Of a DNA stretch of 37,062 nucleotides, positions 20,008 to 37,062 are shown piece after piece. Source of the stretch: Gemmatimonadota bacterium (GTDB lineage: Bacteria > Gemmatimonadota > Gemmatimonadetes > Longimicrobiales > Longimicrobiaceae); contig JAIRKD010000048.1 of the NCBI GenBank assembly GCA_031260285.1, positions 1-37,062 of the forward strand, given 5' to 3'. A program made the translations under genes and the position numbers. Position 1 is the first letter of the stretch. Each line of letters starts with the position of its first letter. The notes beneath the pieces were generated by a model, which saw only the letters and a list, made by a program, of their open reading frames with translations, was not told the origin of the DNA and did no database searches.

Positions 20008-20325
20008 TCAGACCCGCTCGATCAGCACATCAAAAATTCCACCGCACACTGCCGGGCTCCAGGAGAGGTAGTCTTCTGTAAGATCCACCCGGGCGACCTG
20101 GGCGATACCCGTTTCGAATACTTCACGGGCCGTCTCGATCACCTGCGCCTCTCCGCACCCGCCGCCAACGGTGCCGACAAGGCCGGTCTCCAGATCAATC
20201 AGCATCCGGCTTCCGACACCCCGAGGGGTTGAGCCTTTTGCGTTGACAATGGTTGCAAGCACCGCCTTCCGTCCCTGGCGGGCGGATTCCAGAGCCGCTT
20301 CAAATACCAGCCGGGTTTCGCTCAT
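20008..20325 (-). CDS. XdhC/CoxI N-terminal domain protein (stand-alone)
   Basis: A 105-residue protein equal to the N-terminal domain of XdhC, the factor that brings sulfurated molybdenum cofactor to xanthine dehydrogenase-type enzymes. Family motifs are AKGSTPRGVGSRMLI and GTVGGGCGEAQVIETA. The Rossmann domain of full-length XdhC is absent; it is supplied by the neighbouring gene upstream on the same strand (20440-21261). GGAGATGAATTGAT before the ATG gives a ribosome-binding site. A similar split into a CoxI-like domain and an XdhC protein is known in CO-dehydrogenase and related clusters. No molybdenum hydroxylase subunits lie in the window. Confidence 0.87.
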   Translation of the reverse strand: MSETRLVFEAALESARQGRKAVLATIVNAKGSTPRGVGSRMLIDLETGLVGTVGGGCGEAQVIETAREVFETGIAQVARVDLTEDYLSWSPAVCGGIFDVLIERV

Positions 20326-20439
20326 ATCAATTCATCTCCACACAATCTCCACTCCTGATTGCGTGGTGTCTGTCCTCTTTATTCCGTAAACGGTTATGCG
20401 GTGGATCCGGCAATGCCGGAGAACCGTTCTGCCGGGTGC

Positions 20440-21854: not shown

Positions 21855-22050
21855 GGAATCTGGCGGAACGAGGTGTAAACGGGATTCAATGGATCAGCTC
21901 GTATGTCGGCTCTGTACCAGCCGGTATAACGGCCTGAGTATGGCACTCCCTGCGACCGGGCGGAAGGGTGTCGCTTTTTTACACCAGGCCTGGTCCCCGG
22001 TCCGTCGGAAATGGTTCCGGACCCCCGCCGGACGGAGAAGGGTAACGCCT

Positions 22051-22605
22051 TTACTCTCCCGCCCCACCCCGTTCGAGGAGACGGGGCGCAATCAGGCGGA
22101 ACCAGGGGGTGAAAAGCCCGGGCTGCTCCTGCAGTTCAAGCCGGAGCTCCCCGGGGGTGATCCATCGCCAGTCCATGACCTCACGTGGGTCCGGGTCGGG
22201 GTTCCGGCTGGTGGTTCCCGTATAGATATGATCAAGTTCATGCTCGATCAGGCCTTCCCCCACGTCCGCGTGGTAGAGTACAACAAAGGCATGGTTGAGG
22301 GGGGTCTCGAGTCCCATTTCCTCACCAAGCCGGCGCTGGGCGGCGCGGTGAGGATTCTCCCCCGGCCTGGGGTGTGTACATGCCGTGTTCGACCAGAGGC
22401 CGCCTGAGTGATACTTTGCGGCCGCCCGGCGTTGTATCAGCATCCGCCCCGCGCGATCGTAGAGAAAGATGGATACCGCCCGGTGCAGGGCGCCCTCGCG
22501 GTGCGCCTGAAGCAGGGGAGCCGTGCCCAGTTCGTTATCCAGTGCGTCCACCAGGACAACGGAGTCTTCCCTCTCCGGCGGTTGATGATCACATAGGTCA
22601 GTCAT
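22051..22605 (-). CDS. idi: Isopentenyl-diphosphate delta-isomerase, type I
   Basis: Interconverts isopentenyl and dimethylallyl diphosphate, supplying isoprenoid synthesis (the window also holds a cis-prenyltransferase). The 184-residue Nudix-fold protein shows the type I motifs: HRAVSIFLYD, KYHSGGLWSNTACTHPRPGE (catalytic Cys in NTACTHP), RRLGEEMG (Nudix-like) and EHELDHIYTG with the metal- and substrate-binding Glu and His. Start: ATG at 22605 with GGAAAG upstream; a longer frame to 22662 has no sequence resemblance. It is alone, with about 195 nt to genes on either side. Type I enzymes are patchily distributed in bacteria; the MEP pathway can run without one. Confidence 0.93.
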   Translation of the reverse strand: MTDLCDHQPPEREDSVVLVDALDNELGTAPLLQAHREGALHRAVSIFLYDRAGRMLIQRRAAAKYHSGGLWSNTACTHPRPGENPHRAAQRRLGEEMGLETPLNHAFVVLYHADVGEGLIEHELDHIYTGTTSRNPDPDPREVMDWRWITPGELRLELQEQPGLFTPWFRLIAPRLLERGGAGE

Positions 22606-22799
22606 CGGGAAGCTTTCCGCCGGGTTGTAACGGGAAGTGGCATGGACAGAAGGGATGAACAACGCGCACGGAAGACGGACGGAACCATGGGATCAAAGAC
22701 CTTCCCTCTGTTTCAGCCGGATGCCGTCTGCGGGAGGATACATCAAAGAGGCTCCCGATCAAGGGCTCTTCAAAGGAACCATCCGCTGGAGACGGGCCG

Positions 22800-23024
22800 T
22801 CAGTTGACGGCCTTCACCACCACTCCGGGTGTACGGACGGCCTGGGTATCCGCAGTCACCCGTACGCCGTCAACTTCGGAGTCGCCGGTGGTACGGCCCG
22901 CCACTTCGGTTGCGGATTCACCGGGATCATCCGGACCGGAGTTGTCCGGACGACCGGAGCACGCCACAAGAAGCGACGAGCAGAGTGACGAACAGAGAAG
23001 CGTAATGACAATATACCCGCGCAT
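22800..23024 (-). CDS. Small lipoprotein, unknown function
   Basis: A 74-residue protein with a convincing lipoprotein signal: MRGYIVITLLCSSLCSSLLVAC, lipobox LVAC with lipidated Cys22. The mature part of about 50 residues is hydrophilic, rich in Gly, Asp, Thr and Val, and looks unstructured. GGAAG lies upstream of the ATG. The frame extends upstream to 23705, but that part is antisense to the barrel protein gene. It is divergent from the BamA-like gene at 23232, with 207 nt between. A weak hairpin (22746-22770) with a short T tract on the minus strand could end the transcript. Confidence 0.65.
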   Translation of the reverse strand: MRGYIVITLLCSSLCSSLLVACSGRPDNSGPDDPGESATEVAGRTTGDSEVDGVRVTADTQAVRTPGVVVKAVN

Positions 23025-23231
23025 GGGCTTCCGGGCCTCAGGAGAAGGTACCATAATCCGAATGATCACCAGGAACCGGATCGGCAACTCGCGTACCGGC
23101 AGCAGCCCGGCGGCCAGCCCGGTCACAGCAGCCGCGGAAGCTCCGCATGCGTCCATGTCCATCGGTTCTGAACCGGGCGCCATCGGGCGTTCCGGCTGGC
23201 GGACACCCGACGCCCGACAGGAGAGCAACGC

Positions 23232-25463
23232 ATGATCACCTTCCTCGCCGCGGCGTTCCTTCTCCAGATTCCGGATGCGGGCGCTCAGCTTCCAGATGCC
23301 AGTGTCGGCTTTCCGGGTACAGATATCCAGCTTCCGGATGCGGGTATCCAGCGTCCGCAGCCAGCGACCCGGCTGCAGGGCAGCCTGCAGCCCGACACGG
23401 CCCGGATCTTCGACTCGCCGGAAACGGAGTCGCTTGTGGTCCGGGCGATCGCGGCGATGGGAGACATCCCTGCCGAGCTGACGGATTATCAGGCCCGGGT
23501 GCAGAGCACGATGCAGATCACCATCGCCGCGGATACCGTTGGCGTTTCCGATCTGCCGGCAACGGTGGACGAGGTGATCTCCGATGTGAACTGGCACCGG
23601 CGGGGATACCTCCAGCAGGATGTGGTCGGCCACCGGATGCGGGTGCTGATACCGCTTCCCTACACGCTGGCCACCATTTTTGAGACCCCCTGGATCACGC
23701 CGCACCTGTATGGCCCCCGGATCTACTCCCCGCTCGGGCAGGCGCCGGCGCTGAACCCGTTCAGCGCGGAGGGGCCGAGGTACTACCGGTACCAGACGGG
23801 GGATACCATCCGGGTTCGCACCACCGATCAGCTGCTCACCCTGGTACCAATCGAAGTACGCCCGAGAGTGCCGATCAAAATGAGTGACGTCCCCCTGGTG
23901 GTGGGGACCTTCTACCTGGACGCCGACCGGGCAGCGGTTGCCCGCGCGCGCGTTGGCTTTGCAGGAGGAAGCGGCGGACTCCCCCGCGTCATGGGACAGA
24001 TCGAGACCTTCCTGGAGTTCGAAAACGCCCTCTGGGACGACCGGTTCTGGCTTCCCTTCCGCCAGCGTCGTGACATCCTGTTCGAGTCGCGGCTCCTGGG
24101 CGGCGGAGTCACCGCGCGGGTGGTGAACCGGTTTGACGATATCCGGCTGAATACCGGCTGGGAGCCAACCGGCCGGATGACAACACTCACCTGGTCAGAC
24201 ACCCGCGACCGGCAGGCGTTTGAGAACTGGCGCGCCCCGATCGGTGATGAAGAGTCCGAGCTGACCGCCCAGGACTTTGCCGATCTGCGGATTGTCTCCA
24301 CTCTGGGTGGTGATGAGAACGCGGATGCCGCAGCCCGGCTGCGTCTTCATTACGACCGGGGGAACCACCTCTTCCGCTTCAACCGGGTTGAGGGTCCGTA
24401 TCTGGGTGTGGGCGCGAGCCTTTCCCCCGTCTTCCCCCGTCTGAACCGGCGCGAGGTATACGGCACTGCCGGATGGGCGTTTGCGGAGAACACCCCCCGT
24501 GGCGAACTCGTCTACCGTCAGGGAACTACGGTTGTGGCGCTTCCCGGCGCGGGGATCGACTGGGGGTTGGAGGCGGCGCTCTACCGCCGGCTGAACGACA
24601 TCCAGCCCTTCCGCCCCACCTTCATGTGGGACTGGTTCTATACGATGCCCGCCTTCCTCTGGGGTGGCGACCGGCGTGACTACTACGATGCGCTGGGCGC
24701 GGAAGCCTCGCTGGTCGGGCGGAGCGGCCGGTGGACGGGCCGGGGCGGGCTGCGCTTTGAGCAGCAGGATTCGGTGAGCGTAAACACCAACTGGTATCTG
24801 CTCAGCAGCAAGGAGCTGGAGACCCGGCCGCTGGCGGGAGTTGACCCCGGAAAGCTCTTCGCCCTGGAGACAAGCGCCCAGTACTCCTTCGGGCCGGGTG
24901 CGTTCGGCATCGGGAAGAGCTTCCTCCTGCGGGCAGAGGCGGAGGCGGGCTTCGGGGACTTCAGCTACCAGCGCGTGACGGGGCTGCTCAGCACCCGGTA
25001 TTCCCTGGGGCCCATCACCCTCGCCACCCGGACGGACGCGGGATACATCACAGGTGACGCGCCGGCCCAGAAGCTTTTCCGCTTCGGCTCCATCGAGGGG
25101 CTGCGAGGCTACGAGCCCAACGAATTCGGTGGCTCAGCGGCGGTGCTCGGGCGGGCGCGGCTGCTGCTGGGTGTGCCGCCGCGGAGGTCAACGCCACTCA
25201 CCCGGGTCGGGCTGTTCATGATCCCGCCGCTCCGACCGAATCTGGTGCTGCTGGGAGAGACCGGCTGGACTATGGTGTCGGATGAACTGGCGCCAACGCT
25301 GGAGCGCTTCGGGTCGCGAACCACCGATGGGTTCCGGAGTTCGGTGGGGGTGGGGGTGAGTATTTTTGACGACGCGCTTACAGTGGAACGGCTTTTTCCG
25401 GTGGGGAAGGATGAGGGCGCGCGGGAGCGGAAGTGGTATGTCGGGTTTACGTACTGGTATTAA
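23232..25463 (+). CDS. Large BamA/DUF5686-like outer-membrane protein
   Basis: A 743-residue protein. It starts with a short signal peptide (MITFLAAAFLLQIPDAGAQ), then a Pro/Asp-rich repeat segment with three near-copies of (I/L)PDAG(A/I)Q (residues 13-42), a mixed alpha/beta region to about 330, and a C-terminal barrel. The last 130 residues resemble BamA/Omp85 barrels: GSIEGLRGYEPNEFGG matches the conserved LRGY-type motif, and the chain ends in an aromatic residue after SIFDDALTVERLFPVG and YVGFTYWY. No POTRA-repeat pattern is obvious; the overall shape is closest to the DUF5686 group. GGAGAG upstream supports the ATG. Role not known: possibly protein or lipid insertion, or surface exposure. 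Confidence 0.78.
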   Translation: MITFLAAAFLLQIPDAGAQLPDASVGFPGTDIQLPDAGIQRPQPATRLQGSLQPDTARIFDSPETESLVVRAIAAMGDIPAELTDYQARVQSTMQITIAADTVGVSDLPATVDEVISDVNWHRRGYLQQDVVGHRMRVLIPLPYTLATIFETPWITPHLYGPRIYSPLGQAPALNPFSAEGPRYYRYQTGDTIRVRTTDQLLTLVPIEVRPRVPIKMSDVPLVVGTFYLDADRAAVARARVGFAGGSGGLPRVMGQIETFLEFENALWDDRFWLPFRQRRDILFESRLLGGGVTARVVNRFDDIRLNTGWEPTGRMTTLTWSDTRDRQAFENWRAPIGDEESELTAQDFADLRIVSTLGGDENADAAARLRLHYDRGNHLFRFNRVEGPYLGVGASLSPVFPRLNRREVYGTAGWAFAENTPRGELVYRQGTTVVALPGAGIDWGLEAALYRRLNDIQPFRPTFMWDWFYTMPAFLWGGDRRDYYDALGAEASLVGRSGRWTGRGGLRFEQQDSVSVNTNWYLLSSKELETRPLAGVDPGKLFALETSAQYSFGPGAFGIGKSFLLRAEAEAGFGDFSYQRVTGLLSTRYSLGPITLATRTDAGYITGDAPAQKLFRFGSIEGLRGYEPNEFGGSAAVLGRARLLLGVPPRRSTPLTRVGLFMIPPLRPNLVLLGETGWTMVSDELAPTLERFGSRTTDGFRSSVGVGVSIFDDALTVERLFPVGKDEGARERKWYVGFTYWY

Positions 25464-25597
25464 GGGGAAGTAACGCACACGGCCTGCTGACCCACCGCGA
25501 TCAGCGGCCTCTGCGGAACGCCGGAGCTGCAGCACCCGACGCAGGCGCACGCGATTGCCACTCGCTAAATCGTGGGCATCCATGGAACGCCGAAGTC

Positions 25598-25626
25598 GCA
25601 GGGACAGGCTTGAAACCTGCCCCTGC
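25598..25626. repeat. Palindromic repeat, family A, imperfect copy
   Basis: GCAGGGACAGGCTT, central G, AAACCTGCCCCTGC: same plan as the copies at 5328, 16606 and 33180 but with two mismatched pairs. It lies between the barrel protein gene and argR. Confidence 0.75.
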
Positions 25627-25700
25627 GATTTCGGATAAGTTCTCTCCCACTTGCATCACCATCCACCCACCAAGCATCTTTTCCCTGTCGTCGCGTTCTG

Positions 25701-25729
25701 TTGGTTCTCCCCGGAACGCTCCGTATCAC
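25701..25729 (+). promoter_or_regulatory. Candidate argR promoter
   Basis: TTGGTT (25701-25706), 17-nt spacer, TATCAC (25724-25729). The predicted transcription start (about 25736) is only a few bases before the GTG at 25742, giving an almost leaderless message. Confidence 0.4.
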
Positions 25730-25741
25730 ACCAACTCATAC

Positions 25742-26203
25742 GTGTTCACGGTGCTGAAGCCTCAACGCCACGCGGAGATCCTCGATGTCGTCCGCAAGAA
25801 CCGGGTGGCTTCCCAGGAAGTCCTGCGTGAACTGCTGATGGCGCGGGGGATTGATGTCGCCCAGGCCACCCTTTCGCGTGATATCCGCGAGCTGGGCCTC
25901 GTGAAGGTGCCCGAGGAGGATGGGGGCTCGACGTACACCGTCCCGACTCACGTCACTGACCCGACGCCCACGCTGGCGAGGCTTCTGCCGGCGCTGTACC
26001 TCGGTGCGGACGGGGTGCAGAACCTTCTGATCATAAAAACGCTGACGGGTGGCGCTCAGCCGATCGCGGTTGCGATTGACTGGGAGGAGTGGCCGGAGGT
26101 GGTGGGCACGCTCGCGGGGGATGATACGATTCTGGTGATTCTTCGCGCGGCTGAGCACCTTCCGGTGATTACGCAGCGGTTGCAGACACTTGCGGGGATC
26201 TGA
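25742..26203 (+). CDS. argR: Arginine repressor
   Basis: Arginine-responsive regulator of arginine biosynthesis. The 153-residue protein has the N-terminal winged helix (KPQRHAEILDVVRKNRVASQ; ARGIDVAQATLSRDIRELGL, with the typical TLSRDIRELG recognition region) and the C-terminal oligomerisation and arginine-binding domain (NLLIIKTLTGGAQPIAVAID; GTLAGDDTILVI, with GDDT matching the Asp pair that contacts arginine). Start is GTG at 25742 or 25751; neither has a ribosome-binding site, but a promoter lies just upstream. It is located 1.5 kb before the arg biosynthesis operon and probably controls it through the palindrome at 27643-27652. Confidence 0.94.
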   Translation: MFTVLKPQRHAEILDVVRKNRVASQEVLRELLMARGIDVAQATLSRDIRELGLVKVPEEDGGSTYTVPTHVTDPTPTLARLLPALYLGADGVQNLLIIKTLTGGAQPIAVAIDWEEWPEVVGTLAGDDTILVILRAAEHLPVITQRLQTLAGI

Positions 26204-26254
26204 ACTGACCGGGGGAATATCCTGCCCCCACTCGCCGGACACCGGCCTGTTCCG

Positions 26255-26278
26255 CAGGGCATCTCATGCAATGCCCTG
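26255..26278. repeat. Palindromic repeat, family C (GCATGC-type core)
   Basis: CAGGGCAT, eight-base loop (CTCATGCA), ATGCCCTG. Related copies at 26378, 28802 and 29679. It follows the argR stop codon by 51 nt. Confidence 0.7.
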
Positions 26279-26377
26279 GCTGGTTCGGGTTCAAAATTCC
26301 TGACGCAGGAAACCAGATCGCCTTTTACTCACTATCCGTATAACCGACCCCCGGTCATGCCGGGAAGGGATTTCTCC

Positions 26378-26404
26378 GTAAGGTGTTGCATGCAACGCCT
26401 CTAC
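26378..26404. repeat. Palindromic repeat, family C
   Basis: AGGTGTTGCA followed by TGCAACGCCT (26381-26400), one G-T pair, extended by GTA...TAC with a bulged base. Lies 27 nt before the next gene's ATG. Confidence 0.75.
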
Positions 26405-26430
26405 ACCTTCTCACTCCACTCTTGTGAACC

Positions 26431-26718
26431 ATGAAATACCGACTCTCTCATGTCTCCATTCACCAGGCCGGGAAAATCAGTGCACTCGTTTACGGGATTC
26501 TGGGGCTGCTTATTATGCCCTTGTTTCTGATTGCGTCTATTTTTGATCCCGAAGAAGCATTTCCGATCTGGGTCGCGATTCTACTTCCGTTGTTTTATGC
26601 GGGACTCGGCTACCTCTGCGTCGCTCTCTGCATCTGGGTATACAACGTCATAGCGGCTCGTATCGGGGGAGTGGAGTTCACTCTCTCCGCTGTTCCTGAT
26701 TCAGAACACGCTGACTGA
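26431..26718 (+). CDS. Small two-helix membrane protein
   Basis: A 95-residue protein with two membrane helices: about 17-38 (SALVYGILGLLIMPLFLIAS) and 47-75 (WVAILLPLFYAGLGYLCVALCIWVYNVIA), a short acidic connector (FDPEEAFP) and a C-terminal strand GGVEFTLSAV. The pattern (HQAGKISALVYGILGLLIMP ... GGVEF) resembles a widespread but uncharacterised bacterial membrane protein family that I cannot name with certainty. It lies between argR and the arg operon but has no evident link to arginine. No good ribosome-binding site; a family C palindrome is just upstream. Confidence 0.78.
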   Translation: MKYRLSHVSIHQAGKISALVYGILGLLIMPLFLIASIFDPEEAFPIWVAILLPLFYAGLGYLCVALCIWVYNVIAARIGGVEFTLSAVPDSEHAD

Positions 26719-26918
26719 TCACGGCAATCAAACAGGGTTCCGGCGACGACCATCGGGATCAACCATAATGGAAGATGGTTGTCAGATGGGGCGTGGCTCC
26801 ACACCATTTGACCATCAATTCAGATTGGAAGGGATTGCCCGGCGTTTCCGCCCCGATTGTACCATTTATATGACCGGCCAGCCCGCGCTGGAGATAGAAC
26901 CCATTCTTATCGAAACGC

Positions 26919-27185
26919 TCACAGAAGTCTCCAGAACCAGAGTGCAATCATCAAGGGCAGCAACTGAACAACCCACCTGAGTCGCCAGTTGTGAAGGAAT
27001 GATTGCCATGTCAGAAGGAAGAGGGACCCGACAACTACCGCAATCAGACTCACAAAAAGAACAAAGGCACCCACGTGCCCGTCCCAATTCCCGAGGAATG
27101 AAAGCGCGATAAGCAGATTCGGCCCGACAAGCGCCAGCCCCAGAATGAAATTGATCCGAACAAGAGCCAATTCCATGAATTTCAC
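26919..27185 (-). CDS. Small three-helix membrane protein, unknown function
   Basis: An 88-residue, very hydrophobic protein: helices at about 8-30 (VRINFILGLALVGPNLLIAL), 37-58 (HVGAFVLFVSLIAVVVGSLFLL) and 68-88 (LRWVVQLLPLMIALWFWRLL). Start is GTG at 27185, with GGAGG five bases upstream; an in-frame ATG lies at 27176. It converges with the other small membrane protein gene. No family recognised. Base composition is less GC-rich than the arg genes. Confidence 0.65.
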   Translation of the reverse strand: MKFMELALVRINFILGLALVGPNLLIALSFLGNWDGHVGAFVLFVSLIAVVVGSLFLLTWQSFLHNWRLRWVVQLLPLMIALWFWRLL

Positions 27186-27657
27186 GGATGCCTCCAGGTG
27201 TTCATTCAGGTCAACCGGATAATTCCATCAATTCCAACTACGGAATACTCTGTAACGCACAGATATTGTCATACTAATGCATGCTCCCGATGACACAATA
27301 TTCCTTCTCTATGTGAGGAAAGATGATGCCTCCGGGAAGAGAGTCCTCATGGGTTCGCCTTCTGGCGCCCATAGAGAACGGACATGAATCCCTCTGATAG
27401 GACCTGACGAAGGTCGTCGGAAATCTGCGGGTCCCAAACCGGATCATGAAGCTGATAACCAACGACGAACGACGCCTCACTTCATTCCCCGTTGGCACTT
27501 CCACCCCATTAACCATACAATATCCGGTTTCACCCGGAATTCCCCGCTCGCCCGGACAGGATCGCGCCTCCCCGCGCCACCACTCTCCCCGCGAACGGCC
27601 ACCGCTCCTGGCCCGCCCGTTGCTTGACGACCACCAGGACATGAATATATTCTTATC
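27186..27657. other. Intergenic region upstream of argC; no convincing gene
   Basis: About 470 nt, more AT-rich than the flanking genes. Short frames on both strands have no family resemblance. The last 35 nt contain the argC promoter. Confidence 0.45.
27624..27652 (+). promoter_or_regulatory. argC promoter with overlapping candidate ArgR operator
   Basis: TTGACG (27624-27629) and TATATT (27646-27651), 16-nt spacer. GAATATATTC (27643-27652), a perfect palindrome inside TGAATATATTCTTAT, overlaps the -10 box and resembles half of an ARG box (TGAAT...ATTCA). The ATG at 27658 or 27661 lies six or nine bases after the -10 box, so the transcript is probably leaderless. Confidence 0.6.
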
Positions 27658-28662
27658 ATGATGAATGATTCTTCACCCTTGGCGGTAGGTGTGCTGGGGG
27701 CAACGGGGTACACGGGGCGGGAGCTGCTGAAGAAGCTCTCCCGGCATTCCCGTGTCCGTATTGCTTTTGCCACCTCCGAGAGCGAGGCGGGCGCGCCGCT
27801 GCGCCGGCTGGTGCGCAATGCTCCGGATCTCGCGCTCCAGAAGGCGGAGACAGCCCCGCTTGGTGAAGCCGCGGTGGTGTTTTCCTGCCTTCCCCACGGC
27901 GATTCGAGCCGCTGGGTGGAGCGCGTGCTTGCCGCGGGCACAGCGGCGATCGACCTTTCGGCGGACCTCCGGGTCCAGGGGCCGGAGACTCCGGAGTGGG
28001 CGCGTGAGGCGGTGTACGGGCTGCCGGAGCTGCATCGGGAGAAGATCCGGTCCGCCCGGCTGATCGCGAACCCGGGGTGCTACCCCACCGCCGCGATCCT
28101 CTCCATTGCGCCGCTCGCCCGCCGGGGTCTGCTGGCCGATGCGCCGGTGATCATCAATGCGGCTTCGGGTGTGACGGGCGCTGGCCGGACTCCCAAGCGG
28201 GAACTCCTCTTCGCGGAAGTGGCGGAGGATTTCCGCGCATACGGGGTGGGCAACACGCACCGGCATCTGGCGGAGATGGTGGATCAGGTCGGAAAAGTCA
28301 GCACGGGCGCGGTGCCGGAGCTGATCTTCACCCCACACCTGCTCCCGGTTCGACAGGGGATTCTGGAGACGATCCATATCACTCTCCGGAAGCCGCTCTC
28401 CCGGGAGGAGGCAACCGCGATCTACCGCGAAGATTACGGGAACGAACCATTTGTTGAGGTTCTGGCGGAAGGGACCCCGACGCTCACAAGCGTTGTCGGG
28501 ACGAACTACGTTTCGATCGCCGCGGTTCCTGTGGAACGGGTGTCCACTCCGATGCTCCAGGTGATCGCCGCGGAAGACAACCTGATCAAGGGCGCAATCG
28601 GCCAGGCGATTCAGAATCTGAACATCATGCAGGGCTGGCCGGAAACCGAAGGCCTGCTCTGA
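27658..28662 (+). CDS. argC: N-acetyl-gamma-glutamyl-phosphate reductase
   Basis: Third step of arginine synthesis: NADPH-dependent reduction of N-acetylglutamyl phosphate to the semialdehyde. The 334-residue protein has a Rossmann motif (VGVLGATGYTGRELLKKL), the catalytic Cys in NPGCYPTAAILSI, GVTGAGR, the His motif THRHLAEM and LLPVRQGILETIH. This is the long type I form. It opens the cluster argC-argB-argD-argA-argH. No ribosome-binding site precedes the start; the promoter is immediately upstream, so initiation is likely on the 5' end of the message, at ATG 27658 or the adjacent ATG 27661. Confidence 0.96.
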   Translation: MMNDSSPLAVGVLGATGYTGRELLKKLSRHSRVRIAFATSESEAGAPLRRLVRNAPDLALQKAETAPLGEAAVVFSCLPHGDSSRWVERVLAAGTAAIDLSADLRVQGPETPEWAREAVYGLPELHREKIRSARLIANPGCYPTAAILSIAPLARRGLLADAPVIINAASGVTGAGRTPKRELLFAEVAEDFRAYGVGNTHRHLAEMVDQVGKVSTGAVPELIFTPHLLPVRQGILETIHITLRKPLSREEATAIYREDYGNEPFVEVLAEGTPTLTSVVGTNYVSIAAVPVERVSTPMLQVIAAEDNLIKGAIGQAIQNLNIMQGWPETEGLL

Positions 28663-28916
28663 AGGGTTCCCGGGGGGACTGATCCCGTGTTCCACCAGAT
28701 TGCAGGGGCGCAGCGCCCAGGGGGCAGCTCGGCAGTGTAAGGACTGCCCCTCGGGGTCGCTCCGGGGTCAGCCCCGGCAGGGTGATAGGGTGTGGAAACA
28801 GGCAGGGCGTTGCACGCAACGTCCCTGCACCCGGGTGCCGCCATGGACGTGATGCGGAAACAGCTTTCAGAGCTGCCCGACACCGGACCGCTGTATACAA
28901 CGACGCGAGCAGAACG
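28663..28916. other. argC-argB intergenic spacer
   Basis: A 254-nt gap, long for an operon. It contains a family C palindrome (28802-28828) and GC-rich inverted segments (CAGGGGGCAGCTC / GACTGCCCCTCG around 28708-28756), but no gene. The gap could reduce or separate expression of argB from argC. Confidence 0.45.
28802..28828. repeat. Palindromic repeat, family C
   Basis: GCAGGGCGTTGC, AC, GCAACGTCCCTGC: arms complementary except for one extra T. In the argC-argB gap. Confidence 0.75.
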
Positions 28917-29666
28917 ATGGGGAAGATCACCGTAGTCAAGGTTGGCGGGAACGAGGTTGATGATCCCGCATGGGTAAAACGGCTGGCGTCGGGGATCGCA
29001 GCAAGCCCGGATCCGGTGGTGGTGGTCCATGGGGGCGGAAAAGAAGTCTCCGATGTGCAGCGGACACTTGGCGCGGAACCGGCCTGGCGGGACGGTCTGC
29101 GCGTGACCACTCCCGAGGCGCTGCGGGCGGTTTCGATGGTGCTTTCAGGCCTGGTCAACAAACGGCTCGTGGCAGCGCTGATCACAGCTGGCGTTCCGGC
29201 CGCTGGGCTGTCGGGAGAAGACGGCGGCACGCTGAGGGCGGTGCCGGTACGCGGTGGCGTGATGGGCCGCACCGGTGAAATCGAACGGGTGGACGGAGCG
29301 CTGATCCGGGTACTGCTCGACGGCGGCTTCACCCCGGTGATCTCACCGGTCTCCCGGGGGCCGGACGGCGGCGCGCTGAACGTCAACGCGGATGACTCCG
29401 CCGCGGCTGTTGCCGGCGCACTTGGCGCGGAGCGTTTCCTTCTGGTATCCAACGTCCCGGGGGTCCTGCGTGATGGCGCGAGGATCCCCTCGGTGACGGA
29501 GGCAGCACTGGAGGAGCTGATCTCTCTGGAAGTTGCCAGCGGAGGAATGATCCCCAAACTGCGCGCTGGGATGCGTGCGGCGGCGGCAGGTGTGGCGGAT
29601 GTCCGGATCGGAGACCTGTCCCTGCTTTCGGATTCGAACGCTGGAACGCGGTTGTTGACTGTATAG
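28917..29666 (+). CDS. argB: Acetylglutamate kinase
   Basis: Second step of arginine synthesis: phosphorylates N-acetylglutamate. The 249-residue protein belongs to the amino-acid kinase family: catalytic Lys in VVKVGGNEVDD, VVVHGGGKEVSD (phosphate binding), RVTTPEALRAV, and LNVNADDSAAAVAGALGA and a Lys in GGMIPKLRAGM. Its length and the lack of an N-terminal extra helix resemble the arginine-insensitive, E. coli-type enzyme; if so, feedback control would act on ArgA instead (inference). Start at ATG 28917, where homology begins; no strong ribosome-binding site. Confidence 0.95.
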   Translation: MGKITVVKVGGNEVDDPAWVKRLASGIAASPDPVVVVHGGGKEVSDVQRTLGAEPAWRDGLRVTTPEALRAVSMVLSGLVNKRLVAALITAGVPAAGLSGEDGGTLRAVPVRGGVMGRTGEIERVDGALIRVLLDGGFTPVISPVSRGPDGGALNVNADDSAAAVAGALGAERFLLVSNVPGVLRDGARIPSVTEAALEELISLEVASGGMIPKLRAGMRAAAAGVADVRIGDLSLLSDSNAGTRLLTV

Positions 29667-29678
29667 AATTGGCTTTGC

Positions 29679-29701
29679 CAGGGCGTGCATGCAACGCCCC
29701 C
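29679..29701. repeat. Palindromic repeat, family C
   Basis: CAGGGCG, core TGCATGCA, ACGCCCC; one base short of a full palindrome. It begins 13 nt after the argB stop. Confidence 0.65.
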
Positions 29702-29867
29702 GGTGCGGTGGAGGATCGGCGGTGAATGGTTTGCTGTGAGAGCTGATTTCCTTTCGGGGTGCCCTTTGCGCCGGGGGAAACAACCAGTAGTCCGGAAGAC
29801 TCCAGGGTCGTAGACAGAAACGGTCGTAAAAAGAAACCGTCGGGAACGTCAGCGAGTGGTGAACGAG

Positions 29868-31085
29868 ATGAATACGAGCGAAATGATCAGGAGCGAGATG
29901 ACGCCGGTGATATCAGCCGGGTGGCAGGGTGATGCGTTGCTGCCCGTATACAAGCAGCCGTCCACGGTGATTGTGGGGGGTGAAGGGTCGTATCTGGTAT
30001 CGGCTGAAGGGAAACGGTACCTCGACTTCACCGCCGGCATCGCCGTAAACGCGCTCGGATACGGCGACCCTGATCTGGCCGGAGCGATCCGGGCGGCGCT
30101 TGATACGGGGTTGATCCATACATCCAACCTCTATCGCACGCTTCCGGTTGCGGAGCTCGCCAGCTGGCTTGTGGCGCACTCCTTCGCCGACCGGGTCTTC
30201 TTCTGCAACTCGGGCGCGGAAGCCAATGAAGGCGCCTTCAAGTTCGCCCGGCGCTGGGCGCGCGAGAACGGCGGGGCGGACAAGTACGAGATTGTGGCGT
30301 TCCGTCACTCGTTCCATGGCCGCACCTTCGGAGCACTCGCCGCAACCGACCGGCCGGGCTACCAGGAGCCGTTCAGGCCGCTGATGCCGGGCGTCCACTT
30401 TGTGGAGCCGGGAGATGTGGAAGGCTTCGACGCGGTGGTCAGCGCGGAGCGGACTGCGGCGGTGATCATCGAGCCGATCCAGGCGGAGGGAGGGGTCGTC
30501 CCCGTACCGCCGGAGTTCCTGGCGCACATCCGCGAAGTCTGCGACCGCAACGGCGTGCTGCTGATCTTTGACGAGGTACAGGTCGGGCTCGGGCGGACGG
30601 GGAACCTCTGGGGGCATGAAGCCACCGGAGTGACGCCGGACCTCATGACACTCGCAAAACCGATCGCCGGCGGGCTGCCGATGGGCGCGGTTCTGCTTAC
30701 GGAACGCGTCGCCGCCGCAATCAGGCCGGGTGACCATGCAACCACCTTCGGGGGCGGCCCGCTCGTAGCCTCCGCCGCGCTGGCTGTCTGCCGGAAGATC
30801 GGAAGCCCTGACTTCCTCGCGGATATCCGCCGGAAGGGCGATCTGATCGCTGATGTACTGGGCGCCCTGGCGCTCCAGCGGGACGAGATTGTCTCGGTCC
30901 GAGGCTCGGGTCTGATCTGGGGGATCGAGACCAGCACCGACGCGGCGCCGGCGATTGCCGCTGCCTTTGAAGCGGGCCTTCTCCTGGTCGGCGCCGGTCC
31001 GCGCGTGATCCGTCTTCTGCCGCCGCTCAACATCAGCGACGAAGATCTGCGGGCCGGCCTGACGACCATCGCCGAAGTGCTCTGA
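29868..31085 (+). CDS. argD: Acetylornithine aminotransferase
   Basis: Fourth step: converts N-acetylglutamate semialdehyde to N-acetylornithine with PLP and glutamate; may also serve lysine synthesis. The 405-residue class III aminotransferase shows YLDFTAGIAVNALGYGDPDL, VFFCNSGAEANEGAFKFAR (PLP phosphate contacts), HSFHGRTFGALAAT, IIEPIQAEGGV, LIFDEVQVGLGRTG (PLP Asp) and the Schiff-base Lys in MTLAKPIAGGLPMGA. ATG at 29868 is chosen with GGTGAACGAG before it; GTG codons at 29856 and 29859 are alternatives. About 200 nt separate it from argB, with a family C palindrome in between. Confidence 0.95.
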   Translation: MNTSEMIRSEMTPVISAGWQGDALLPVYKQPSTVIVGGEGSYLVSAEGKRYLDFTAGIAVNALGYGDPDLAGAIRAALDTGLIHTSNLYRTLPVAELASWLVAHSFADRVFFCNSGAEANEGAFKFARRWARENGGADKYEIVAFRHSFHGRTFGALAATDRPGYQEPFRPLMPGVHFVEPGDVEGFDAVVSAERTAAVIIEPIQAEGGVVPVPPEFLAHIREVCDRNGVLLIFDEVQVGLGRTGNLWGHEATGVTPDLMTLAKPIAGGLPMGAVLLTERVAAAIRPGDHATTFGGGPLVASAALAVCRKIGSPDFLADIRRKGDLIADVLGALALQRDEIVSVRGSGLIWGIETSTDAAPAIAAAFEAGLLLVGAGPRVIRLLPPLNISDEDLRAGLTTIAEVL

Positions 31086-31086
31086 A

Positions 31087-31668
31087 GTGCTGATCCGCAT
31101 CACGGATCAGCGGGGCCCGGGGGAAGCCACAGGCGGCGCGGGGGTTTCCTCCCCCCGTCGTTCAACACGCATTCCCTCGGAGGCTGGAGACGGAACGGGA
31201 ACAACGGGGAAGATCAGCGTCCGCCCCGCCCGGATCCCGGATATGCGGGACGTTGAGCCTCTCATCCGCACCTTCGCGAATGAGAACCTGATGCTGCCCA
31301 AAGGTCTGGACCAGCTCAGCAGAACCTTCCGGGAGTTTGTTGTCGCGGTTGATGAAGATGATTTTGTGATCGGCTGCGGCGCACTCCGGGTCTATACGGA
31401 GGAACTCGCCGAGGTGTGCTCCCTCGCCGTGGACGCTGCCTGGCAGCGGGGTGGTGTGGGAAGAAAAATTGTGGAAGCACTTACGGAGGAGGCGGGAAGA
31501 CTCGGCCTCAGCGAGATCTTCGCGCTTACCCTCCGGCCGGAGTTCTTCAAAAAACTCGGGTTTGAGGTTGTCGTCAAGGAGAACTTTCCGCTGAAGGTAT
31601 GGGCGGACTGTCGGAACTGCCCGAAGCTGCACGCCTGCGACGAGATCGCGGTGGCGCGGAAGGTCTGA
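31087..31668 (+). CDS. argA: Amino-acid N-acetyltransferase (N-acetylglutamate synthase), short GNAT form
   Basis: First step of arginine synthesis: acetylates glutamate with acetyl-CoA. The 193-residue protein has a single GNAT domain: ISVRPARIPDMRDVEPLI, CSLAVDAAWQRGGVGRKIVE (acetyl-CoA loop) and FFKKLGFEVV, ending with the Cys-rich segment WADCRNCPKLHACDE that is typical of this short ArgA subgroup. It lacks the kinase-like arginine-sensing domain of E. coli ArgA. The first 42 residues (to GTTGK) are low-complexity and unlike the family, but no better in-frame start is visible; GTG at 31087 follows the argD stop by one base. ATT or CTG initiation further in cannot be excluded. Confidence 0.9.
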   Translation: MLIRITDQRGPGEATGGAGVSSPRRSTRIPSEAGDGTGTTGKISVRPARIPDMRDVEPLIRTFANENLMLPKGLDQLSRTFREFVVAVDEDDFVIGCGALRVYTEELAEVCSLAVDAAWQRGGVGRKIVEALTEEAGRLGLSEIFALTLRPEFFKKLGFEVVVKENFPLKVWADCRNCPKLHACDEIAVARKV

Positions 31669-31703
31669 CCCTGAAAGATCCGGAAGAGGGAGATCAGCAA
31701 GAG

Positions 31704-33116
31704 ATGGAATCGATGCCGTTGGCCGCGCAGCCCGCAAAGCTCTGGGGGGGTCGTTTCACCGCGGAACCATCCGCGGATATGGACCGCCTGAATCAGTCGC
31801 TCCCGATCGACCGGAGGCTCTGGCGCGAGGATATCACGGGGAGCCAGGCGTGGGCAGCGGCGCTGGGCCGGGCGGGTGTGCTCTCCACCGGGGAGGCTGA
31901 TCTGCTTGTGGAGGGCCTGGAGCGGGTTGCCGCCCGGCTCGCGACATGGCCGGTTCACGAGTGGAACGACGCAAGTGACGAGGATATCCATTCACTGGTT
32001 GAACGTCTGCTGCGCGTTGAAGTCGGCGCAGCTGCGGGGAAGCTGCACACCGGCCGCTCCCGGAACGACCAGGTGGCCACAGACACGCGTCTCTGGGGCC
32101 TCGGCGCGGTGGACCGGCTGGATGTGTTCATCCGGGATGTGATCAGCGCTCTGGTAAGCTGTGCGGAAGCAAATGTGGATACGGTGATGCCGTCGTACAC
32201 ACACCTTCAGCGGGCGCAGCCGGTTGTGGCGGCACACTGGGCGCTTGCACACGCCTGGGCGATCTCCCGCGACCGCGACCGTCTTCGCGATGCGCGCCCC
32301 CGGGTGGGCGTCATGCCGCTGGGCTCCGGCGCGATCGCCGGCTGTCCCTTCCCCGTGGACCGGGAAGCGCTTCGCGAGGAGCTGGGCTTCACCACAATCT
32401 CGCCGAACAGCATTGATGCGGTAGGTGACCGCGACTGGATCGCGGAGCTCCTCTTTGTTTCTGCATCACTCGGGGTTCATCTCTCCCGCCTCGCGGAAGA
32501 TGTCATTCTCTTCTCCTCCGCGGAGTTCGGGTTTGTCCGGCTTTCTGATCAGTACTCAACCGGCAGTTCGCTGATGCCGCAGAAGCGGAACCCGGACGCG
32601 ATGGAACTCGCGCGCGGCAAGTCCGGCCGGTTGATCGGCGGGCTGATGCTGATGCTCACCGTGCTGAAGGGTCTTCCGACGGGGTATAACAAGGATCTGC
32701 AGGAGGACAAGGAAGCTCTTTTTGACGCGGTGGATACCCTGGAGACGATGCTTCCGGCGGTAGCGGGAACGATCCGGACCCTGCGCTTCAACGCGCCCCG
32801 TGCCGCTGCGGCAATCGACCCATCGATGCTCGCGACGGATATCGCGGAGTTCCTGGTCCGCGGAGGTGTTCCCTTCCGGGAGGCGCATGAGATGGTCGGC
32901 CGGCTGGTGCGCGCGGCAGAGGAGGCGGGGTGTTCACTCGCGGAGCTTCCGCGTGATAGCTTCCTTGCGGTTTCGCCGGTTTTTGAGAGCGCAGAGCTGA
33001 CAAAGCTTTTTGATCCCGCACAGGCGGTTCAGGCACGGGCGAGTGTGGGTGGAACTTCGCCGGAGTCAGTACGGGCGCAGATCAACGCGCTGAAGCTGCA
33101 GCTGACAGCGTCGTGA
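31704..33116 (+). CDS. argH: Argininosuccinate lyase
   Basis: Last step of arginine synthesis: splits argininosuccinate to arginine and fumarate. The 470-residue protein has the fumarase/aspartase superfamily signatures: KLWGGRFTAEPSADM at the start, DEDIHSLVE, GKLHTGRSRNDQVATDTRLW, YTHLQRAQPV (catalytic His region) and the flexible catalytic loop GSSLMPQKRNPD. Start is ATG at 31704; homology begins within ten residues (KLWGGRF). argG, normally its neighbour, is not here. The gene lies 35 nt after argA and ends the operon; a palindromic repeat follows it. Confidence 0.96.
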   Translation: MESMPLAAQPAKLWGGRFTAEPSADMDRLNQSLPIDRRLWREDITGSQAWAAALGRAGVLSTGEADLLVEGLERVAARLATWPVHEWNDASDEDIHSLVERLLRVEVGAAAGKLHTGRSRNDQVATDTRLWGLGAVDRLDVFIRDVISALVSCAEANVDTVMPSYTHLQRAQPVVAAHWALAHAWAISRDRDRLRDARPRVGVMPLGSGAIAGCPFPVDREALREELGFTTISPNSIDAVGDRDWIAELLFVSASLGVHLSRLAEDVILFSSAEFGFVRLSDQYSTGSSLMPQKRNPDAMELARGKSGRLIGGLMLMLTVLKGLPTGYNKDLQEDKEALFDAVDTLETMLPAVAGTIRTLRFNAPRAAAAIDPSMLATDIAEFLVRGGVPFREAHEMVGRLVRAAEEAGCSLAELPRDSFLAVSPVFESAELTKLFDPAQAVQARASVGGTSPESVRAQINALKLQLTAS

Positions 33117-33179
33117 TTGGTTGATGGGGATGAAGGGCTGCTGAGATTTAGATTTGTGGGATGGAAATGCAAGCTGGGT

Positions 33180-33212
33180 GCAGGGGGCGGGTTTGAAAAA
33201 CCCGCCCCCTGC
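33180..33212. repeat. Palindromic repeat, family A, longest copy
   Basis: GCAGGGGGCGGGTTT, loop GAA, then its exact reverse complement: a perfect 15-bp stem. It sits between convergent genes argH and the 33257 lipoprotein and could block read-through from both sides, though no long T tract follows on either strand. Confidence 0.85.
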
Positions 33213-33256
33213 GGCGTTAATGCAGCCCTGATTCGCGGGAAGAAGAGCATTACATC

Positions 33257-33889
33257 TCAACTCTCAGGATACACGCCACGCTGTCCACAAATTTCCCATG
33301 TATATACAAAGCGGCCAGAAAAAAACACTTCCGAATCAATCTTTATATTACATCGACCCTTACGTCCATCGTCGATCGACCACGCCAATGGTCCATCAAT
33401 CGAAATTGTCCTGTGGAGCACCCGTATATCATTCTCAACCAATGTTTCCTCGTAAAAAACGGTCATATTCAGCGGCCTGGGATTACTGAGGGTTATCACC
33501 TCATATCCCCCGAATCGATCTGTACTCATGGAGTAGACGCATTGATCCAGGGAGATTGTCCCTGACGCAGTAGCAGAAACAAGAGCCGCAGCAGTACTTA
33601 CACTTACCTGTCCGATAAGGGAAACAACCCGATATCTTTGCTCAACAGGGAATACAGAATAATCCATTGAACACGAGGTAACGGAATCCCATGGAACTGT
33701 TCGTGGTGTCGATGTGAGATCCGCCTCGAGAAGAGCAGTTGACAGCATCCCATGATCGGCATTCGCGGCGGTACTGAGGAAGGAACTGAACAGCCATGAT
33801 GCCTCTTCCCAACTCATCTGAGTATCGGGGCCTGTAGAACCACATCCTCCGATGACCAGCAGCATTAAAACTCCGCAGATTATTTTCAT
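33257..33889 (-). CDS. Lipoprotein, unknown function
   Basis: A 210-residue protein with a lipoprotein signal: MKIICGVLMLLVIGGC, lipobox VIGGC, Cys16. The mature part is Ser/Thr-rich with predicted beta strands (YRVVSLIGQVSVSTAAALVS; NDIRVLHRTISIDGPL) and paired cysteines that may form disulfides. GGAG nine bases upstream supports the ATG at 33889. Codon use is markedly less GC-rich than in the arg genes, as in the next gene, suggesting a fast-evolving or transferred segment. Not recognised. Confidence 0.72.
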   Translation of the reverse strand: MKIICGVLMLLVIGGCGSTGPDTQMSWEEASWLFSSFLSTAANADHGMLSTALLEADLTSTPRTVPWDSVTSCSMDYSVFPVEQRYRVVSLIGQVSVSTAAALVSATASGTISLDQCVYSMSTDRFGGYEVITLSNPRPLNMTVFYEETLVENDIRVLHRTISIDGPLAWSIDDGRKGRCNIKIDSEVFFSGRFVYTWEICGQRGVYPES

Positions 33890-33968
33890 CACCAGGAGCT
33901 CCGGCAATAGGTATCAGTCATGGCAGAGGAGACGTAGAATGAATTCAGCAAGAACGACACTCACTCTC

Positions 33969-35054
33969 TCACTGCTCGAATAACACCCGATAAATGGAAT
34001 ATGGCCCCGCAACCCGATTCCTAGGATTCAACGCAACAACCCAGAGAGCATTCCTTACGGGGTCAAAAGCGATATCCTGGAAATATCCAAAGCGTACCCC
34101 GTCCCCCCGACCGGTAGAAGGAGCAGGATTGCCGTCCGTTATTGACACATTACCCACAACAGTGCTGACATTACCATTAACGTCGACCTTTCTGATTGTC
34201 CCGGATCCCTGATCCGCTACATAGATATTTTCATCGAAATCAACAGCAATCGGGTTTTCAAATCCGTTGGTACTGAATAGTGCATCCGCTCCCTGGGCAT
34301 CACGATAACCACGAACGTTCTTCTGCCCAGCTATCAATTCCAGTTGATTTTGGGAATCAAATCGCCAGAGCGCATGGTACCTGAAAACATAGATCGCTCC
34401 TGTTTGAGGAGATACAGCAATGGATGTATGCCCTACAATGGAATAATAATCACCAAGTTCTTCAGAGTTGATTATTTCTGCAGAAACATCCAGAGTATCG
34501 CTGCTCTCCCTCCGATCATACCTGACGGTCCATATAGAAGAAACAGAGCTATCCCAATCCGAAGCAATGAACTCATTTGAGGACAGCATTTTTATTTGCG
34601 TAATAGTATTCACTGGGGAATACCTCATAATCCCTCTCGTGGATACATACAGAGAGTCATTATTGAACAGATATGTTACTCCCCCTTCAGAAAATATCCC
34701 GCCTCGCGCGATAGAAATCACCCTGCTCTCTTCTCCTGAAGCATCGCAGGCAATTGCCGTAAGGAATCCTCGTTGAGAAGAAAACAAAGGAGAGATCAAA
34801 CCAGAGGTAAGGTCAATTACACTTACTGAACTTGGTGACGGTTGCGTGAAATATAATTTATCAGAACACAGAGCGACACGGACATGACTGATGGGAAGAA
34901 ACCCTCCGCGTATCGCGGCTACCTCGGTAACAGTCGCCCGGGCCGAAAGCAGCGGCTCATCGTTCCGGGCGGGAGAAGTGCTGTCGCTCGCGCCGCAGGA
35001 AGCCAGAAGAATCGCTAACGGCAGCGCGAGAAGTCGGCCAGAATGCATATTCAT
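33969..35054 (-). CDS. NHL/beta-propeller-type lipoprotein
   Basis: A 361-residue protein with a lipoprotein signal (MNMHSGRLLALPLAILLASC, lipobox LASC) and a body that looks like a beta-propeller: repeated short segments such as TSIAVSPQTGAIYVFRYHALWRF, NPIAVDFDENIYVADQGSGTI followed by RKVDVNGNVSTVVG, and DIAFDPVRNALWVVAL, which match the NHL-repeat pattern (pro-x-gly-hydrophobic blade starts, G-x-I-x-x-hydrophobic). Such proteins usually act as scaffolds or sensors at the cell surface; no enzymatic motif is visible. The ATG at 35054 is preferred to an upstream frame start at 35108 because the signal peptide begins there. Base composition is lower in GC than most of the window. Confidence 0.75.
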   Translation of the reverse strand: MNMHSGRLLALPLAILLASCGASDSTSPARNDEPLLSARATVTEVAAIRGGFLPISHVRVALCSDKLYFTQPSPSSVSVIDLTSGLISPLFSSQRGFLTAIACDASGEESRVISIARGGIFSEGGVTYLFNNDSLYVSTRGIMRYSPVNTITQIKMLSSNEFIASDWDSSVSSIWTVRYDRRESSDTLDVSAEIINSEELGDYYSIVGHTSIAVSPQTGAIYVFRYHALWRFDSQNQLELIAGQKNVRGYRDAQGADALFSTNGFENPIAVDFDENIYVADQGSGTIRKVDVNGNVSTVVGNVSITDGNPAPSTGRGDGVRFGYFQDIAFDPVRNALWVVALNPRNRVAGPYSIYRVLFEQ

Positions 35055-35302
35055 CACGGAACCATCGGCTGGAGAAACGGATGACATCTGAAGGCAGGTT
35101 ATATGCAAAAGGACGAGTCAGGCAAGTATTCTCTGATCGGGGCGGAGTTTGATGCTCACCCGGAGTACCCTGCCCTCCTCGACCTCAAAAGGATCGATGG
35201 ATTCATGGTGCGGAGAACGGCTGACCGGTTCTTCTCTTCCCGGGGCCCGGAGGACTCTGACGGAAGATAGTACCGGTTGGTTGGCGGAACAGAAAGAAAC
35301 TT

Positions 35303-35330
35303 CCCCGGAGCTGGATGCTCAACTCCGGGG
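35303..35330 (-). terminator. Terminator of the 35370-36014 gene
   Basis: CCCCGGAG (35303-35310) pairs with CTCCGGGG (35323-35330), 12-base loop. On the minus strand it follows the stop at 35370 and is succeeded by the T-rich AAGTTTCTTTCTG. Confidence 0.6.
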
Positions 35331-35369
35331 GGAAAGCAGGGATACAATATGAATCATGAGCCCGCGGAA

Positions 35370-36014
35370 CTACATCCTGTATCCCAGCATCATGGAAAAG
35401 GTACCCCTGGGCGTTATTGCCCCTTCGGAGCGAAGGAAGATCTTCCCCGAACTGAACTGCTGCAAAGCTACCAGACGCAGAGATTTATCCACTCCGTACG
35501 AGTACCCGTACGTTGGCCAGCGCCCGTACTCTTCCCTCCAGACAACACCCCCCCGGAAAAAAAGGCCCTCCATAACATTGCCGTGCTCATCCCTCCGGCT
35601 GTGTCCGACTCCGATTTCAGCGACGCTGTACAGCGCGGCGGGTGAGCCACCATGCTCAAAACCGTCCCTGTTCACAAATCCATCCCGGGTGAACTCTCTG
35701 CCCACAGTTACCGAGGGGCAGAAAGGGATGGACGCCGCCACAGCACCCAGCTCCAGAAGCTCGCGGAAGTGAGCCCGGCCGATGGCTGAAACCCCGGAGC
35801 GGATTTCCATTCCACCCGAAAGCTGGGCCACGTAGTGATTTCCATGGTCAGGTCCACCCAGCGCTGTTTCCCGCGTTTCTTTGTAGTAACCTGCTCCCGC
35901 CGCGACAAACCCCGACCGGGCATCCTCCGGAAACCCGAAGCATGCCTGCGCGGCAAGTCCGGTGCTGACTGTGAAGAGGGATAGAGCAAGCGCGGACAAT
36001 GCAGTGATCTTCAT
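35370..36014 (-). CDS. Secreted beta-barrel protein, paralogue 1
   Basis: A 214-residue protein with a signal peptide (MKITALSALALSLFTVSTGLA, cleavage after LAAQA) and a strand-rich body typical of small outer-membrane barrels (SGFVAAGAGYYKE, HYVAQLSGGMEIRSG, VYSV/AEIGVG segments, final FSMMLGYRM). The first 25 residues nearly match those of the next upstream gene (36229-36852), as does the DNA before the start codon, so the two arose by tandem duplication; the mature parts have diverged strongly. No family name recognised. No Shine-Dalgarno sequence stands out before the ATG. Confidence 0.75.
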   Translation of the reverse strand: MKITALSALALSLFTVSTGLAAQACFGFPEDARSGFVAAGAGYYKETRETALGGPDHGNHYVAQLSGGMEIRSGVSAIGRAHFRELLELGAVAASIPFCPSVTVGREFTRDGFVNRDGFEHGGSPAALYSVAEIGVGHSRRDEHGNVMEGLFFRGGVVWREEYGRWPTYGYSYGVDKSLRLVALQQFSSGKIFLRSEGAITPRGTFSMMLGYRM

Positions 36015-36228
36015 CTCATCTTGCCTGTACAGAGGTTGATTGCGCCGGGGAACTCGAGGCGGAACAGGAATAGATTGATCCCTCCCGCAAACTCACAGAA
36101 TGGATCCGCCTCTGAATGAAGCCGAGCGGGAACGATGCTTCATCAGAAAGAGGGGTCCCATCTTATTACAAGAGAACTTTTGTCCGGAGACCCGAGCGGG
36201 AGCATCGACATTGACCTTCCCGGAAGAA
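36015..36228. repeat. Duplicated upstream region, copy 1
   Basis: About 210 nt before paralogue 1 align with 36853-37062 before paralogue 2. Conserved blocks include GGAATAGATTGA, GATCCGCCTCTGA, GGGAACGA, and the CGACATTG(A/G)CCTTCC end. The copy includes a decayed version of the hairpin that is intact at 37015-37048. Confidence 0.75.
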
Positions 36229-36852
36229 TCAGAAGATCATACCGCCCACAACTCCGAACGTATCACCCGCATCCGAGATACGAGCGCCTACAACATATCT
36301 GTCAATAATCAGATTGACACCACCAACAAATCCCCAGGCAAATAATGTCGAGGTATACTGTCCGTAAAAGGGGCTATCAATGGTTGTTTTCCACCACTCT
36401 ACCCGAGGATTGGCGTACGGATTGAGTACCGCGCCATGACCCAATGGAAAACCGAAGCCGAGGGCAGCGCCGAAAGGGATCCATACCTCCCAGGGAGCTT
36501 CTATGCGTCCGAAATTCAAACCCACAACAGGACAGACCGATATCGCCGTCCCCGAGTCGCGCGACTTCAGCGTTTTTTCGTAAGCCGCTTCAGTCGAAAA
36601 CCTGTGTCCGAAGATTGTGGGAGAGCTTTCTGATTGAAAAAGTGTATACCCGGCTTTCAAACTCAATTCGGGAGACACCATTCTGCCCAGATTGATATCG
36701 TAATTGGTACCGTAATCGCTCCAGGAGCTTACTCCAAGCATCCCCTGGTTCTGACCCGCATTCAGCGGGGTGCCCAGGCAGACCTGCGCCGCAAGTTCGA
36801 CACAGACCGTGGAAAGGGATAAAGCAAGCGCACATAATGCAGTGATCTTCAT
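36229..36852 (-). CDS. Secreted beta-barrel protein, paralogue 2
   Basis: A 207-residue protein with signal peptide MKITALCALALSLSTVCVELA (cleavage near LAAQV) and a mature part rich in glycine and alternating strands (YDINLGRMVSPELSLKAGY, IPFGAALGFGFPLGHGAVL, FVGGVNLIIDRYVVGARISD), ending in an aromatic Phe (VVGGMIF), as expected for an outer-membrane barrel. Its signal peptide is almost identical to that of paralogue 1, but the rest is different, implying duplication followed by fast divergence or recombination. The ATG at 36852 is the start; a frame extending to 37053 is the duplicated upstream region, not coding. Confidence 0.75.
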   Translation of the reverse strand: MKITALCALALSLSTVCVELAAQVCLGTPLNAGQNQGMLGVSSWSDYGTNYDINLGRMVSPELSLKAGYTLFQSESSPTIFGHRFSTEAAYEKTLKSRDSGTAISVCPVVGLNFGRIEAPWEVWIPFGAALGFGFPLGHGAVLNPYANPRVEWWKTTIDSPFYGQYTSTLFAWGFVGGVNLIIDRYVVGARISDAGDTFGVVGGMIF

Positions 36853-37062
36853 CTCAATTTGCCTGTGCATAAGATTAACTACGTCGGGAACTTGAGGCGA
36901 GAGAGGAATAGATTGACCCATCCCACAAACTGAAGTGATCCGCCTCTGATTAAAAGCTGAATGGGAACGACTCTTCACGAGAAAGAGGGAATCTGTTTCC
37001 ATCTCATTAGAAAGGGTGCTCCCGTCCGGAAACCCGGACGGGAGCACCGACATTGGCCTTCC
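36853..37062. repeat. Duplicated upstream region, copy 2
   Basis: Counterpart of 36015-36228, reaching the window edge. Because the preceding unit ends with a stop codon nine bases past the same point, a third related gene probably ends just beyond 37062. Confidence 0.7.
37015..37048 (-). terminator. Strong hairpin, terminator of a gene to the right of the window
   Basis: GGTGCTCCCGTCCGG (37015-37029), loop AAAC, and its exact reverse complement (37034-37048): a 15-bp perfect stem. On the minus strand it is followed by CTTTCTAATG. It should terminate a minus-strand gene whose end is just outside the window. Confidence 0.65.

Follow-up and report, generated by a model that had tools for sequence, protein, structure and literature searches.

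How did two neighbouring genes that encode barely similar proteins come to have the same upstream DNA and related signal peptides? This question is raised by genes A and B at the right end of a 37,062-nt stretch of DNA (the window), which is the entire contig C110 of a draft Gemmatimonadota assembly (2.76 Mb, 110 contigs; estimated completeness 98.15%, contamination 4.78%). The initial annotation took the pair for a variable surface-protein family that diversifies or recombines cassettes behind a constant leader. The reading we favour, at a probability of about 0.72, is that old paralogues exchanged a block of leader and signal peptide, that the A end was duplicated at about the same time or slightly later, and that gene B is a mosaic left by the exchange.

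Gene A (35370 to 36014, minus strand) encodes 214 aa, a signal peptide followed by a 192-residue mature part that begins QACFGFP, carries its second cysteine within a CP pair and ends in TFSMMLGYRM; codons 1-23 (35946 to 36014, minus strand) are taken as the signal-peptide codons, with a putative cleavage site. Gene B (36229 to 36852, minus strand; 207 aa), which precedes A in the order of transcription, carries an A-type signal peptide (codons 1-23, 36784 to 36852, minus strand, typed by the mosaic test below) on an old B-type body. A longer frame of 277 aa, which runs through the leader, was rejected as gene B. The two adjacent minus-strand genes, their common upstream DNA and the hairpins are all present in the window as first annotated. 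The signal peptides had been called nearly identical, which overstates a likeness of 18 in 23 residues and, at the DNA level, 53 identical bases in the first 66. The mature parts are barely alike, as had been claimed: BLASTP joined the proteins over residues 1-32, with no significant match past residue 32 and one additional piece at chance level. Searches with B in viral contigs, with the B pair in genome contigs and with A in plasmids gave nothing usable; nor did NCBIfam, where a single sub-threshold match was obtained, for the B-type gene of a second locus (B73, below).

In DNA, the repeat spans a terminator hairpin, the 5' leader and the signal-peptide codons. One leader copy fills the 214 nt from the B stop to the A start (36015 to 36228, minus strand), and the other lies before B (36853 to 37062, minus strand), where it is cut by the contig end. 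The 283-nt block of B, comprising leader and signal-peptide codons, matches the block before A at 76% identity with an E value of 9.9e-49 within its own genome, so the likeness is not a matter of chance. The annotated 210 nt or so of common upstream DNA was recovered as 153 identical bases among 202 aligned, with 20 gapped columns. The two hairpins also proved to be as described, the one at 37015 to 37048 (minus strand) being terminator-like and intact, with 15/15 pairs, and the one near 36182-36205 (minus strand), in the leader before A, being decayed, with 4 of 12 consensus stem pairs broken. The intact hairpin probably belongs to a further gene past the contig end. A separate terminator-like hairpin behind A (35303 to 35330, minus strand) is weak because three such sites occur in the region, compared with 2.3 expected from shuffles. 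Past the terminator, a conserved RNA fold of the leader has no real support: in the three sequences available, 5 of 57 predicted pairs were changed on both sides, and the covariation term was -0.31. A promoter scan returned two sites, neither of them on the minus strand, and an Rfam search over 33000-37062 gave nothing usable.

A DNA search of all 110 contigs found three copies of the leader; next in rank came matches to the hairpin's self-complement (E 2.9e-5 and 5.5e-5), followed by one at E 0.68. The third copy (C73:1751-1972) lies on contig C73 between a B-type gene (B73, C73:1130-1750), which it follows, and a second A gene (A73, L034:1973-2311 on C73), which it precedes; the window genes are accordingly labelled A110 and B110. 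A73 matches A over 106 codons and then breaks off, a truncated copy, and at the break stands an opposite-strand gene that by its look we take to be an AI-2E-type transporter. Upstream of B73 the genome search gave no leader match. That part of C73 (L034:1-1086) holds a 361-aa open frame, cut by the contig start, with no Pfam match at E 0.1. At both readable places, behind B in the window and behind B73, the block starts at the stop codon of a B-type gene. Because the window ends inside a block and the block follows B-type genes, the unseen gene beyond the edge is probably B-type as well, and a further B-type gene just past the right edge is likely. The other B-type genes in the genome are a tandem pair on contig C97 and a single gene on C55, all three absent from the leader matches of the genome search. 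The C97 genes (L032:3162-4738) are adjacent, in the same orientation and 36% identical in their mature parts; their flanking genes are presumably cmk-like and rpsA-like.

Gene B is a mosaic: its leader and signal peptide are of A type, its body an old one of B type. Among the sites at which B110 matches only one of the two C73 genes, those matching A73 and those matching B73 stand at 27:3 in nt 1-66, 3:1 in nt 67-75 and 2:19 in nt 76-120 (Fisher p 5.5e-9 for nt 1-66 against nt 76-120). The best break falls at about nt 70-77 with A73 and 62-77 with A110, corresponding to about 36776-36791, over the AAQ-x-C codons. The mosaic also follows from divergence (dS and dN by Nei-Gojobori counts), since A bodies and leaders are close and B bodies far apart, with a dS of 0.23 for mature A110-A73 against 1.76 for mature B110-B73. 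The corresponding dN values are 0.057 over the 83 codons kept by the truncated copy (dN/dS about 0.25) and 0.325 over 181 codons (dN/dS 0.18), and both body pairs are under purifying selection. The age of the B pair can be given only as old because its dS is near saturation. Across the 23 signal-peptide codons, dS is 0.27 for B110-A73, 0.53 for B110-A110 and 0.49 for A110-A73, each of these on only about 18 synonymous sites, and 1.57 for B110-B73, whose signal peptides are alike at 9/23.

The three leaders are about equally close to one another. Their identities range from 75 to 79%, with 157/209 for B110-A73 (14 gapped columns) and 169/214 for A110-A73 (8 gapped columns) beside the B110-A110 count given above, and the two A leaders are grouped by a 4-nt gap and several bases. 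Between B110 and A110 the leader differs at 49 of 202 positions, far fewer than the 89.6 synonymous differences in 132 between the B bodies (p 1.5e-15). That different bodies came to lie behind a common leader by recombination, as originally suggested, is borne out by the mosaic test. Third positions of B110 and B73 agree at 19/29 in the last 29 codons and at 73/175 in the rest (p 0.025), a weak hint that a later duplicated tract began inside the 3' end of the B gene.

From 20 B-type proteins we defined a QxCxGxP family by a mature QxCxGxP start and exactly two mature cysteines, the second at position 76-92 and usually followed by proline. From 24 matches to B, we excluded two to A signal peptides and one of 71 residues within a frame of 1211 aa; one of the remaining 21 proteins (L016), which does not have the exact QxCxGxP, was dropped, and 20 were used. 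Exactly two mature cysteines were counted in 20/20 of these B-type members, the first being given by the choice of motif itself, and CP stands at the second in 18/20. Both window proteins have the two cysteines, B at mature positions 3 and 85 and A at 3 and 77, the latter with CP. When the A body was shuffled with the motif kept, CP turned up at that position in 90 and 109 cases of 20000, for a signature that had been noticed in A before it was tested. An alignment of eight sequences including A left Q23, C25, G27, P29, C107, L181, F199 and G204 invariant (B numbering). A C-terminal pattern, its last letter chosen after seeing A, occurred in 16/20000 shuffles and together with CP in 0/20000; a looser form occurred in 1114/20000 and 11/20000, respectively, and the pattern adds little to the case for A's membership. 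A profile of the B family, built through MAFFT, did not recognise the A body (E 0.13), which leaves the cysteine signature as the basis for calling A a paralogue. Against the same profile the truncated A copy reached E 0.004, which does not improve on the top-scoring shuffle (0.0044) among 200 that kept the motif, and hhalign of A to the B family gave a probability of 12%, with E 0.0024 across just 19 columns.

B-type proteins turned up in 17 of the 99 genomes searched, a count that includes the source genome, and the pairwise match of B to the protein from one of them, G009, reaches E 1.7e-20. For A, no match was accepted from any other genome, whether among these 99 or among 298 genomes of the phylum (the sets overlap), and G001, the only genome of the same genus searched, matched neither A nor B. 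The only distant match to A, in G103 (E 0.002), was set aside as chance; it lies antisense to another open frame. In a narrow literature search, no title or abstract dealt with the QxCxGxP family or with a leader exchange of this kind in Gemmatimonadota.

The genes lie beyond a conserved arginine region. Gene order up to argH is conserved in all three relatives examined (G001, G009 and G007), and the window frames from 33.2 kb on had no match beside argH in these genomes, compared over 14 kb per relative and reaching about 6.7 to 8.5 kb past argH. The argH product is 64-71% identical to its counterparts in genomes of its own family (eight near full-length matches). Among the 80 named loci kept for this protein, the best four were Gemmatimonadota MAGs (56-57% identity), and Gemmatimonadota names accounted for 16/80, the remainder belonging to other phyla, including one Chloroflexi record at 57%; this points weakly to a Gemmatimonadota-like lineage. 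From 33200 to 37062 the G+C content is about 48-58%, compared with mostly 63-67% in the arginine genes, and the leader-bearing region of C73 is also low, at 48-56% compared with 61-65% farther along that contig. Adjoining A within this stretch are two minus-strand genes (33257-33907 and 33969-35108) that look lipoprotein-like by eye; the product of the latter has an NHL-type match (PF25021, 33.5 bits, cut-off 27.1) and that of the former has none. No second copy of either was found in the genome (33.2-35.3 kb searched, 14/14 candidates scored).

We propose that A and B are old, strongly diverged paralogues of one two-cysteine family whose members bear signal peptides. A block of about 280 nt, consisting of the terminator of the preceding gene, the 5' leader and the signal-peptide codons, would have been copied between the two types by recombination, either from A to B or from B to A. 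The break lies where the export signal ends, in the conserved AAQ-x-C codons that surround the signal-peptidase site, and short homology at the QxC codons may have mediated the exchange. The stretch running from the end of a B-type gene through terminator and leader to A would have been duplicated to C73 at about the same time or slightly later. The block may carry a promoter, and the effect would be to give different bodies one set of expression and export signals; the locus today drifts under ordinary purifying selection. The three leader copies, the mismatch in age between leader and B body and the position of the breakpoint are direct observations, made on a type, A, that is confined to one genome and on a draft assembly with an estimated contamination of 4.78%.

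An adjacent, co-oriented pair with common upstream DNA and the same family signature could also be the product of plain tandem duplication, with very fast divergence of the bodies while constraint kept the leader and signal peptide. This is very unlikely, as the body of B110 is far nearer to B73 and its leader and signal peptide are far nearer to A, affinities that one tree cannot yield together, and the leader shows no constraint beyond that of synonymous sites. A variable surface-protein system, in which bodies are still shuffled behind a constant leader and the truncated A on C73 serves as a silent or donor cassette, is likewise highly improbable. It would account for the common leader, the different bodies, the truncated extra copy and the likely further unit past the contig end, and the low-G+C surroundings are absent from three relatives; however, the leaders are drifting at the rate of synonymous sites, both body pairs are held by purifying selection and the assembly contains three leader copies. 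Near-identical leaders or recent conversion, the marks by which such a system would be known, were not found, identity being 75-79% and divergence neutral-like. The leader is not constant, and the A leaders differ as much as A synonymous sites (45/214 against 13/66.8, p 0.86), so they are not being homogenised now. Two tyrosine recombinases (PF00589) were found, on C22 and C53, and no serine recombinases (PF00239), so that neither of these two families is represented on C110 or C73; RecA-type recombination would need neither. Of the variable surface-protein family originally proposed, one past leader exchange stands, but active variation finds no support in leader divergence, selection or copy number; nor is ongoing diversification supported by the dN/dS values or by the C97 pair, which falls outside the leader matches. 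It is quite unlikely, too, that the QxC codons form a standing recombination joint at which bodies have repeatedly been mounted on one leader, in an array that runs on past the edge.

The second locus could instead stem from another, related organism in a mixed bin, in which case the A genes would be orthologues with no duplicate locus. This is compatible with the mosaic reading, and B's mosaic nature stands regardless. A contamination estimate of 4.78% allows for it and a dS of 0.23 would suit two related species, but no second full-length copy of C73:6001-25125 or of window positions 14000-33200 was present among the candidates scored (40 of 147 and 40 of 148, respectively), the remaining matches being either incomplete (79 to 508 bases at 67-77%) or under 50 nt in length, and the G+C contents are equal (0.619 and 0.620). 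With no second full-length copies among the scored candidates and the neighbours of A single, we regard C73 as most probably another locus of this genome and a mixed bin as unlikely.

An exchange between old paralogues thus remains our preferred reading, and it would offer a datable example of paralogues for exported proteins in which the signals for expression and export are swapped separately from the bodies. It also draws attention to a two-cysteine protein family that has been little catalogued and, if the array should prove longer and variable among strains, to a model for surface-protein shuffling outside known pathogens. The products had been annotated as barrel proteins, and A and B probably are outer-membrane barrels, judging from relatives of B. 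The likeness to the small barrels of OMP_b-brl (PF13505) comes through one of five B-type relatives scanned, the G009 protein, which passes the cut-off (E 5.5e-8, 33.6 bits against 28.7); of the other four, two score under it and two lack any match. The difference is that a Pfam search at E 1 gave no family for A, B, B73 or A73, none of which reaches the PF13505 cut-off. Single-sequence structure models of A and B had pLDDT values of 31.8 and 29.7, too low to be of use. Within the genome, the C97 pair resembles the window pair in family, adjacency and orientation, but its genes have their own signal peptides and are not among the leader matches.

The closest parallel is found in Helicobacter pylori, where, as described in PMC3960876, intragenomic recombination between the outer-membrane paralogues babA and babB yields chimeric babB/A and babA/B genes. 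Here as there, paralogous genes for outer-membrane proteins (probable ones in our case) have recombined within a genome into chimeras. In contrast to bab gene conversion, which the same source describes as frequent and as altering adhesion (PMC3960876), the window genes record a single old exchange, with diverged leaders, in one genome. Nothing shows active antigen switching, and the case of A and B is one of ordinary recombination between paralogues.
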